Below are positions 13,320 through 22,821 of a DNA stretch of 35,721 nt, in pieces. Position 1 is the stretch's first letter. Each line of letters begins with the position of its first letter. This stretch comes from a virus: positions 1 through 35,721 of the IMG/VR virus record IMGVR_UViG_3300033388_006769; one strand, given 5' to 3'. A program made the position numbers and the translations under genes. The notes below the pieces were generated by a model. It worked only from the letters and a program-made list of their open reading frames with translations. It did no database searches and had not been told where the DNA came from.

Positions 13320-13387
13320 TTATGGAATTATGTTTAGAAGTATTAAAAAATCGAGTATCAATTATGTAAAAAATGTTATTTAGCTCA

Positions 13388-19572: not shown

Positions 19573-20503
19573 ATACCTAGAGAAAGCTCTTTCCAAATTA
19601 AGCACTTTAGCAGATGAAATAGTTACTGCCTGTAATGCTAAAGACCAAAAAACGAGAGATTTTTTGGTAAATAACACAATCTCTTACGATTTTTCAGATT
19701 ACGAGTGGGGAAAAGAGCAGTGGAAAATAAAAGAGTTGTTCTTTAGAAAGTGTGTTTTGCCAAGAAACCCTTCTTGGGTTTTAACTCAAGACAGTGATGA
19801 GGTTTTTGGAGACGCTTTTACCAAAGAGAAAGCTTTGGAACTTCAAGAGAGAGGAGAAATTGCTTATACCTTCTATTGTGTTCAACTCTGGGATAGAGAA
19901 GACCAAATGAGAGTTGATGGTGGCTGGGGGAACTTTAGAAATGTGAGATATTTCAAAGTTATCAAAGAAGCAAATTTTTCTTGGCAGAGAACTCCCCTAC
20001 ATTGCGGTTTAGCTCCGATTTACGCTTACAGATGGGCAGCAGATTCAGAATTCCTTTTTAAACATTACGGCTATTTTAAAAAAGAAGACAGAATAAAAAA
20101 GGTTGAAAGATATAAAAAATATGACCCAAAACAAATATATCAAAACCCCAATTGGTATCAGAGCATTTTAAGTGAACCAACTTTAAAAGAGTTTAACGAA
20201 AAAGAATTCCAGAAAAAACTAAAATACAAACCCAAAGGTCCTTTACTCTCAAAAATTATCAAAAAGAAAATTATGGCAAAAACATATTTTGTAAAAAACA
20301 GACACGGCAGAATATATCCAGTGCCAGAACATCTACTACAAGAGACATTGAGACGACCGGGAATGGAGCTAGTAAAAGAAGAAGATTACCTGAAACAGGA
20401 AAAGAGAGTTCCTTTGGTGAAACCAAATCCTTTACAATGTCCGATTTGCGGATTTGTAGCCAAAAGTAAATTGGGGTTGAACAGTCATATGAGAAAACAT
20501 TAA
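19511..20503 (+). CDS. Glycosyltransferase, GT2-like, with C-terminal domain and C2H2 finger
   Basis: 330 residues from ATG 19511. The N-terminus (KIVGMMIVGTGEADRYLEKA, LADEIVTACNAKD) and the DSD acidic triad at about 94-96 fit GT-A family 2 enzymes that transfer sugars from nucleotide sugars. From about residue 255 a different module begins (MAKTYFVKNRHGRIYPVPEH) and the end is a C2H2-type finger (CPICGFVAKSKLGLNSHMRK). The module could once have been a separate gene (internal ATG at 20274), now fused in frame. Confidence 0.7.
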   Translation: MKQENKKIVGMMIVGTGEADRYLEKALSKLSTLADEIVTACNAKDQKTRDFLVNNTISYDFSDYEWGKEQWKIKELFFRKCVLPRNPSWVLTQDSDEVFGDAFTKEKALELQERGEIAYTFYCVQLWDREDQMRVDGGWGNFRNVRYFKVIKEANFSWQRTPLHCGLAPIYAYRWAADSEFLFKHYGYFKKEDRIKKVERYKKYDPKQIYQNPNWYQSILSEPTLKEFNEKEFQKKLKYKPKGPLLSKIIKKKIMAKTYFVKNRHGRIYPVPEHLLQETLRRPGMELVKEEDYLKQEKRVPLVKPNPLQCPICGFVAKSKLGLNSHMRKH

Positions 20504-22269
20504 TGAAGTTTCTGTATGTAGCCAATTTTAGTCATTCTTGGGAAACTCCAGTTTACATAGCTGATAGTTTGGAAGAATTGGGACACGAAATAAAAAGAAT
20601 TCCCGAAAAGGCAACACCAAAGAAAATAATAAAAAATATTCAACACCACAAACCAGATGTTCTGCTCTTTACCAAAGGAAATATACTGGGAAACCTTCAG
20701 AAAGTTCTGGATTTCTGTAAGGAGAACGATATTCTGACGGTTTGCTGGCTATTTGACCTTTATTTCGGATTAGCTCACAGAGAACCAGAGGTATACGCTC
20801 ATCCTAGATTTAAAGCAGATGTTGTTCTAACCACAGATGGCGGACACCAAGAAAAATTTGAGGCATTGGGAATAAATCATATCTGCTTAAGACAGGGAAT
20901 TTACCAGAAAGAAGCTTATATTTCCAAAAACAAAAGAAGGGTAGAGGAGATTGTCTTTATAGGTTCTTGTTTGGGTTGCTCACCGCATCGTCCCCGTCTT
21001 ATTGAGTTTTTACAGAGAACCTATAAAGAAAATTTCGGCTGGTATGGAAAAGACAAAGATAATCAGGTGAGAGGAAAAGATTTAAATAACCTTCTGGCTT
21101 CAACAAAGATTGTGGTTGGAGACAGTGTTCTTTCACCAAATTATTGGTCAAACAGAGTTTATGAGATTTTAGGAAGAGGAGGATTTCTCTTACACCCAAA
21201 AGTGCCGGGACTTGAAAAAGAATTCACTTACTGGAAGCATTTTGTTCCTTATGACGCTTGGAATTTCAGACAGTTGGAACAGATTATCGATTACTATCTA
21301 ACTCACGACAAAGAGAGAGAAAAAATAAAGAAAGAAGGACATAAATTTTGTAAACAAAACTACACTTATTTAAAAAGGTGTCAAAAATTAATCGAAATTA
21401 TCAATGAACAAAGAGCAATTAAAAAAAGTATTGGAGCAAGAAGAGCTATTGCTTTTACAAATGGAAATGAGGGAAATGTTCCTTCAAAGGAAAATGATAC
21501 AGGACAAAATGAAAAGATTAGAACTTTCAATAGCCGATCTTCAAGCGAAAAAGAGAGCCCAGAAAGAGTATGTAGATTTTCTGCGAGAGAAAATGAAGGA
21601 GTAACAGCAATTCTTCTCCCTTACACAAGAAAAGAACAATATTCAGATTGGTTAAAGAACATTAAAAGTCAAAAAGGAGTGAATTTGACTATCTGGACTT
21701 GGGACAGCACCCTTACTTTGCCAGAGAAAGAAGGAGTTCTAACCTTCAGAGACCCTTACAATTTCGGAGTTTATTGGAGATGGGAGCTGGCAAAGTATGT
21801 TTCGACAAAGTATGTTCTCTTACTTGATGATGATGTCTTTTTCAAAGATGAATATGTTTTAAGAGATACGATTGAAGCTAAAAAGAAATACCCAGAAGAC
21901 ACTGTTGTTGGCTGGAAGGGAGTGATTTTAAAAGGAAAGTATAGTGAAAGCGTTCACATTCGTTCAGAGAAAGTAAAAAAAGACACCAAAGTAGATTTTG
22001 TAAAGGTCAACTACCTCCTTTTTGAAAGAGATGCTTTGAGAAAAACAAAGATTTTGCCCTTTGAAATCTTGGAAATAGACGAGAAAGCAGATGGAGAATT
22101 CTGGTATCTGCCCCAGATGGGAGAACATTATGTGATTAAGTGCCTGTCTAACAGGTTAGACAATTCCCGAACCTTGGGAAAAGGAAAAGAAACGAGGAAA
22201 GACCATTTTAAAAAACAGAACAAACTTGTTGAATTCTCTTTAAAATGCCACCGACTTCAAAAGAAATAA
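20503..22269 (+). CDS. Double glycosyltransferase (CgeB-like GT-B plus GT-A)
   Basis: 588 residues. Residues 1 to about 300 resemble CgeB/GT1-type glycosyltransferases (FLYVANFSHSWETPVYIADS, STKIVVGDSVLSPNYWSNRV and YEILGRGGFLLHPKVPG near the sugar-nucleotide site). Residues about 370-588 form a GT-A domain with LLLDDDVFF (about 440-447) as metal-binding acid motif. Between them is a polar, structure-poor linker of about 65 residues whose DNA also encodes a coiled-coil frame. Probably adds sugars to virion proteins or to cell-surface glycans. It overlaps neighbours on both sides. Confidence 0.7.
   Translation: MKFLYVANFSHSWETPVYIADSLEELGHEIKRIPEKATPKKIIKNIQHHKPDVLLFTKGNILGNLQKVLDFCKENDILTVCWLFDLYFGLAHREPEVYAHPRFKADVVLTTDGGHQEKFEALGINHICLRQGIYQKEAYISKNKRRVEEIVFIGSCLGCSPHRPRLIEFLQRTYKENFGWYGKDKDNQVRGKDLNNLLASTKIVVGDSVLSPNYWSNRVYEILGRGGFLLHPKVPGLEKEFTYWKHFVPYDAWNFRQLEQIIDYYLTHDKEREKIKKEGHKFCKQNYTYLKRCQKLIEIINEQRAIKKSIGARRAIAFTNGNEGNVPSKENDTGQNEKIRTFNSRSSSEKESPERVCRFSARENEGVTAILLPYTRKEQYSDWLKNIKSQKGVNLTIWTWDSTLTLPEKEGVLTFRDPYNFGVYWRWELAKYVSTKYVLLLDDDVFFKDEYVLRDTIEAKKKYPEDTVVGWKGVILKGKYSESVHIRSEKVKKDTKVDFVKVNYLLFERDALRKTKILPFEILEIDEKADGEFWYLPQMGEHYVIKCLSNRLDNSRTLGKGKETRKDHFKKQNKLVEFSLKCHRLQKK
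21404..21604 (+). CDS. Overprinted coiled-coil frame within the double glycosyltransferase
   Basis: A complete ATG-to-TAA frame of 66 residues in another phase, with strong heptad character (MNKEQLKKVLEQEELLLLQM, LSIADLQAKKRAQKEYVDFL). It coincides exactly with the low-complexity linker of the 588-residue frame. Its last codons ATG AAG GAG TAA contain an SD-like AAGGAG. Either a real nested gene or a former gene between two glycosyltransferase genes that have since become fused. No SD before its ATG. Confidence 0.4.
   Translation: MNKEQLKKVLEQEELLLLQMEMREMFLQRKMIQDKMKRLELSIADLQAKKRAQKEYVDFLREKMKE
22146..22161. repeat. GTCTAA-type palindrome, site 4 (inside glycosyltransferase gene)
   Basis: GTCTAACAGGTTAGAC, a perfect palindrome with 7-bp arms, encoding LSNRLD within the 20503 gene, about 100 bases before the methyltransferase start. 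Confidence 0.85.
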
Positions 22270-22805
22270 AAAGTGTTTATTCAGAAGATTATTGGAAAGC
22301 CAAAGAGGTTAATTACAAAAACCTTATTAAGAGATTAAAAATTCCATTTGAGCTGGCAGAAGTGAAAGAAGGAGAAAATATCTTGGATTTAGGAGGAGGA
22401 CTTGGAGAAATTTCTTATCAGTGCCTGAAAAAGGGAGCAAAAGTAGTTTATGTTGATTATTCAGATTACGCTGTCAAGCAGGCAAAGAAAATAAAAGGTT
22501 TGGAAGTTCACGATTGTTCAATTCTCGATTTTATCAAAAAAGAAAAGAGAGTTTTTGATAAAACATTTCTTGTAGATGTTTTTGAGCACCTTTCAAAAGA
22601 AGAAAATGAAGAATTATTCAGCTGGCTGAAAGACCACACTAAAAAACTGATAATCCAGACCCCAATTCACAAAAATTACCTGAAAGAAACGGGACACATA
22701 TTCGTTCTTCCTTTAAAAGAATTGAGACAATTCTTGAGAAAATACGGTTTCCGACCTCAAAAGGAGGTGGTTACAGAAAAGCTAACAGCAGTATTGAAAA
22801 AATGA
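22245..22805 (+). CDS. SAM-dependent methyltransferase
   Basis: 186 residues. Class I fold: motif I ILDLGGGLGEIS at 46-57, acidic residue after strand 2 (VVYVDYSDYA), and post-I DVFEHLSKEE as in Methyltransf_11/23 families. Located in the carbohydrate cassette, so it probably methylates a sugar or carbohydrate precursor. It overlaps the glycosyltransferase gene by 25 bases. Confidence 0.8.
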   Translation: MPPTSKEIKSVYSEDYWKAKEVNYKNLIKRLKIPFELAEVKEGENILDLGGGLGEISYQCLKKGAKVVYVDYSDYAVKQAKKIKGLEVHDCSILDFIKKEKRVFDKTFLVDVFEHLSKEENEELFSWLKDHTKKLIIQTPIHKNYLKETGHIFVLPLKELRQFLRKYGFRPQKEVVTEKLTAVLKK

Positions 22806-22821
22806 ATAAAGCCAAAAACTT

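Follow-up and report, generated by a model that had tools for sequence, protein, structure and literature searches.

Long overlaps between genes on the same strand are usually ascribed to a new gene arising within an old one, and the order of the two is seldom provable. Several described systems share features with the locus reported here. The spacer of the HBV polymerase overlaps the surface gene and represents an alternate-frame linker between enzyme domains (PMC8227390). The linker in our window (the whole DNA stretch analyzed, 35,721 bases) resembles it in that an interdomain linker is read in one frame over a gene in a second frame; however, in the HBV model the linker frame arose within the surface gene and thereby created the fusion (PMC8227390), whereas in the window the fusion is older and an existing gene moved in. 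The HBV proteins and the virus itself are unrelated to those of the window. Apple stem grooving virus (ASGV) likewise has a movement protein gene nested over a weakly conserved linker between the polymerase and coat domains, but it is an RNA plant virus cited for asymmetric evolution, and relocation is not described in the review (PMC8227390). Among phages, PhiX174 has a nested pair, gene E in gene D, in which one gene is likewise contained entirely within a second gene of the same strand but in a different frame; unlike in the window, this pair lies outside an interdomain linker, and the review describes no stand-alone homolog of the inner gene (PMC8227390). A search of the open-access literature with a few phrases found no described case of a gene relocated into a linker. 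Alternate-frame interdomain linkers are already known, and the unusual part of the present locus is the arrival by gene relocation.

The window is a contig of an uncultivated tailed phage with terminase, SU10-type adaptor, tail and virion genes, and a glycosylation block precedes the adaptor gene. The same arrangement is present in a separate contig, G001, whose sequence is identical in the nested region. The two contigs differ by indels of 5 bp and 12 bp (window positions 13378 and 26784), with zero base substitutions over 17.8 kb. Within the block, the glycosyltransferase gene upstream of the locus ends in a C2H2 zinc-finger-like motif, CPICGFVAKSKLGLNSHMRKH (window 20435-20500; Pfam zf-C2H2 E-value of 9e-4, below the cut-off), and a similar motif is found at the same end in three relatives (L003:4015-5004, L020:584-1561, and L035:4012-5004).

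Briefly, we propose that the linker of an existing GT-B/GT-A glycosyltransferase fusion gene received, in another frame, a small gene that existed beforehand, and that both frames are now read, an explanation we regard as quite probable. The features of the locus are collected in the table.

Table. Features of the nested locus and its surroundings in the window.
Feature	Position	Strand	Basis
Outer gene, GT-B/GT-A glycosyltransferase fusion, 588 aa, frame 1	20503..22269	+	Open ORF; fused orthologs in L003, L035 and L036; Pfam and PHROG matches
GT-B domain (Glyco_trans_1_2; phrog_28745), first 299 codons	20503..21399	+	Profile matches; homolog ends; DNA homology with L003 ends at 21399
Proposed unstructured AU-rich start site around the nested ATG, without Shine-Dalgarno	21374..21423	+	MFE of 0.0 kcal/mol
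Linker as read in frame 1 (residues 300-366), polar and open, overlapped by the nested gene	21400..21600	+	Stop-free, with stop-forming codons avoided; linkers of relatives shorter and without nested gene
Nested gene, frame 2, 66-aa helical hairpin	21404..21604	+	Homologs L003:7561-7767, L035:8613-8882 and L036:4876-5145; structure prediction
GT-A domain (GT2-like), starting V-T-A-I-L-L upstream of the ATT	21601..22266	+	T368 invariant; DNA homology with L003 resumes at 21597; Glycos_transf_2 match
16-bp gap between methyltransferase and dehydrogenase genes	22806..22821	+	L003 has a cytidylyltransferase domain and the stand-alone small gene there

Frame 1 forms a single ORF of 588 codons with zero stops, confirming the observation of the sequence-only reading that this frame stays open over the linker. 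The GT-B domain matches phrog_28745 with an E-value of 2.9e-34, above the cut-off, and Pfam Glyco_trans_1_2 with 67 bits against a cut-off of 25; within phrog_28745, a family of phage glycosyltransferases, it matches gp34 of the Streptomyces phage Dryad at 30% identity. Stand-alone GT-B homologs terminate within about 20 codons of 21399. The last 222 codons of the outer gene resemble Glycos_transf_2, for which the GT-A domain of the window scores 21.5 bits, below the cut-off of 23.3, and the orthologs of L035 and L036 score above it with 31.9 and 30.3 bits. The fusion of the two domains was seen only in the window and G001, L003, L035, and L036, and most other GT-B relatives were found not joined to this GT-A. 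Neither the search of annotated phages nor that across genome contigs returned a match or relative of the GT-A domain, and PDB searches with the glycosyltransferase profiles gave nothing useful. Dryad gp35, which adjoins the GT-B gene of that phage, was tried as a stand-alone GT-A and rejected. An AlphaFold2 model of the fusion from a two-sequence alignment reached a pLDDT of 34 and was unusable. A further ORF of 569 aa in this phage group (L076:4131-5840) has the GT-B as its C-terminal half, and its start falls at the place of a separate upstream glycosyltransferase gene in the relative L063 (region compared, L063:4111-5882), which suggests repeated glycosyltransferase fusion within the group.

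The frame-2 ORF, from ATG 21404 to TAA 21604, lies wholly within 20503-22269 on the same strand and exceeds every other out-of-frame ORF of the outer gene by a wide margin, the runner-up having 26 codons. The earlier description of frame 2 as a 66-residue coiled coil ending with ATG AAG GAG TAA holds for the length and the 3' end; in place of a single continuous coil, the AlphaFold2 prediction is a hairpin of two helices (residues 3-34 and 38-65) with a pLDDT of 93.9. The small protein of the window aligns with that of L003 at 39% identity and an E-value of 6.6e-9. The z-score of this pair is 12.9 against full shuffles and 11.9 against sequences shuffled within heptad positions only, the latter serving as a guard against generic coiled-coil similarity, and those with the small proteins of L035 and L036 are 7.5 and 7.3. 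The homology to these three relatives indicates that the inner frame encodes a real and conserved protein family. The distant relatives L015, L024, and L028 have small helical genes ahead of their first glycosyltransferase, and the links of these to the nested protein run only through L003 and L072 (z-scores of 5-9) and are not significant directly; the small genes at L020-L023, L025, and L034 resemble the nested gene by size and place only, and the match in L027 is weak. Counting the links through L003 and L072, the neighborhoods of the small gene vary, with at least five besides the linker. No match to the nested protein was found among annotated phages, the fold search with the hairpin returned no significant match, and scanning the nested family against PHROG did not assign it significantly to any family. 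One possible role for the small protein is that of an accessory to the capsid-adaptor-glycosylation block.

Comparison with the relatives revealed the order of events. The L003 ortholog (539 residues; 67% identity in GT-B and 87% in GT-A), the L035 ortholog (551 residues), and the L036 ortholog (561 residues) are clean in-frame fusions with short linkers and nothing nested, which indicates that the fusion predates the nesting. In all three fused relatives the small protein is encoded by a separate gene. In L003 this gene is flanked by the methyltransferase-cytidylyltransferase and dehydrogenase genes, in L035 it follows an epimerase-like gene, and in L036 it follows the dehydrogenase gene. The DNA alignment of the window with L003 ends at 21399 and restarts at 21597, with 197 window bases in place of 56, and these break points match the limits of the small gene. 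Collectively, these comparisons indicate that the fusion came first and that the small gene was later relocated into the linker in the lineage of the window, so that the lineage-specific event is the arrival of the small gene and not the fusion. A recent gene fusion, one of the three possibilities raised by the sequence-only reading, is not supported, given the presence of the same fusion in three relatives with clean short linkers. The birth of the inner gene within the outer one by de novo overprinting was rejected, since stand-alone homologs occur outside the overlap in L003, L035, and L036. Next to the stand-alone small gene of L003, L003:6596-7564 encodes a methyltransferase-cytidylyltransferase fusion and window 22245-22805 the methyltransferase half only; no cytidylyltransferase match was found elsewhere in the window.

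The nesting was seen in one population only, represented by the window and G001. A metagenomic contig with an arrangement confined to one population might be an assembly artefact in which unrelated pieces were joined; however, G001 is a separate contig with the identical arrangement and two short indels over 17.8 kb, and a chance join would rarely leave frame 1 open (0.4%), which makes this origin highly improbable.

The openness of the two frames was evaluated by holding one protein and varying the codons. In the -1 frame, the stand-alone homologs and the small helical genes at similar places contain 2-14 stops, and the nested copy contains 0. Frame 1 remained open in about 0.4% of the synonymous codon resamplings that held the frame-2 protein; for real gene stretches matched in length, the figure was 0.5%. 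The reciprocal resampling, holding the frame-1 protein, left frame 2 open in 31% of cases; because of this, the openness of frame 2 alone proves nothing, and its significance comes from the homology to a stand-alone gene. Where a T in the third position would create a frame-1 stop, 0 T were seen versus 3.6 expected (P=0.006), and at the other, harmless third positions, serving as an internal control, 8 were seen versus 7.9 expected. This avoidance of stops points to constraint on the outer frame across the overlap, and it may reflect either a filter at insertion or selection since. The codon scores of both frames are positive over most of the overlap, and that of frame 2 is negative elsewhere in the outer gene. 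Around 200 bases probably encode two proteins at once. The anatomy of the locus, the order of events, the frame-2 homology, and the absence and avoidance of frame-1 stops are read directly from the sequence. A fusion with a dual-coding linker, another of the options first proposed, is the one supported by the frame-2 homology and the frame-1 stop avoidance.

The nested copy may alternatively be recently inserted DNA of the small gene that now serves as frame-1 linker only, with frame 2 untranslated and open for want of time. The 31% chance of an open frame 2 would allow this, selection after the insertion is not visible in near relatives given that the window and G001 are identical here, and the nested start is no longer coupled to an upstream stop, a stop-start coupling that the L003 homolog has. 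In contrast, every close relative has the small gene in this gene block, and the window has no copy besides the nested one (the record is possibly incomplete beyond it), and the full-length frame and the start codon are retained in an unusually unstructured start region. Taken together, we consider this explanation unlikely, and we continue with a nested gene that is presumably translated.

The start sites of the phage bear on how the nested gene could be read. A 4-base Shine-Dalgarno match precedes 1 of 22 gene starts in the window versus 17% of the other ATGs, and the gene starts are A-rich and less structured than internal ATGs, which suggests that the phage avoids Shine-Dalgarno sites and uses A-rich unstructured starts. 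Depending on the length of the folded segment, between 0 and 2 of 206 internal ATGs are as unstructured as ATG 21404. This low structure fits internal initiation at the nested ATG but is no proof of it.

The same statistics weigh against the proposal of three separate proteins, namely GT-B, the small protein, and a GT-A started from ATT 21610. The sequence AAGGAG (21596-21601) does lie 8 bases before the in-frame ATT, a favorable spacing, and had been described as a Shine-Dalgarno site; nevertheless, the phage does not use such sites, the same ATT is present in L003 without AAGGAG, and the motif is merely the Lys-Glu end of the small protein. Moreover, the two domains are not separated by any stop in frame 1, a usual start codon is missing for the GT-A (no ATG, GTG, or TTG occurs in frame 1 from the end of the GT-B domain to 21679), and residues just before the ATT are conserved in the four fused orthologs, with T368 invariant and V/I-T-A/T-I-L-L in 4 of 4. 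A start at the ATT was rejected; judging from GT-A anatomy, it would remove the first strand of the fold. We regard three separate proteins as extremely improbable.

Slippage at the A7 run (21421-21427), by which ribosomes or transcripts would pass from frame 1 to frame 2 and yield a GT-B with a hairpin tail, was also considered. The run lies just past the nested ATG, and ribosomes shifting by +1 at this point would enter frame 2. However, a second A7 run in the same gene shows no such use, the homolog stands as a gene in its own right that starts from its own ATG, and the nested copy has retained its ATG, so that slippage seems very unlikely.

The favored relocation may be outlined as follows. 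A gene for a helical-hairpin protein of 66-90 residues would have moved into the linker of a prior GT-B/GT-A fusion and landed in a different frame, with the host frame remaining open, so that about 200 bases would be read twice. Ribosomes starting at 20503 would produce the entire two-domain glycosyltransferase, in which the frame-1 reading may act as a longer polar linker, and other ribosomes may initiate at ATG 21404, which lacks a Shine-Dalgarno site but lies in AU-rich, unstructured sequence, and produce the small protein up to the stop TAA 21604. With its many K/E codons, the hairpin yields in the -1 reading a linker that is polar and probably flexible, and genes of this kind may for that reason be predisposed to nesting.

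In conclusion, it is likely that a phage gene already established elsewhere entered the linker of an established enzyme gene in another frame and that both are expressed. Comparing relatives that have the overlap with those that lack it fixes the order here, first the enzyme fusion and then an old gene into its linker. Relocation into a linker would be another route to compact genomes, and an annotation that allows one ORF per stretch would miss a conserved phage gene and report its absence from the lineage.
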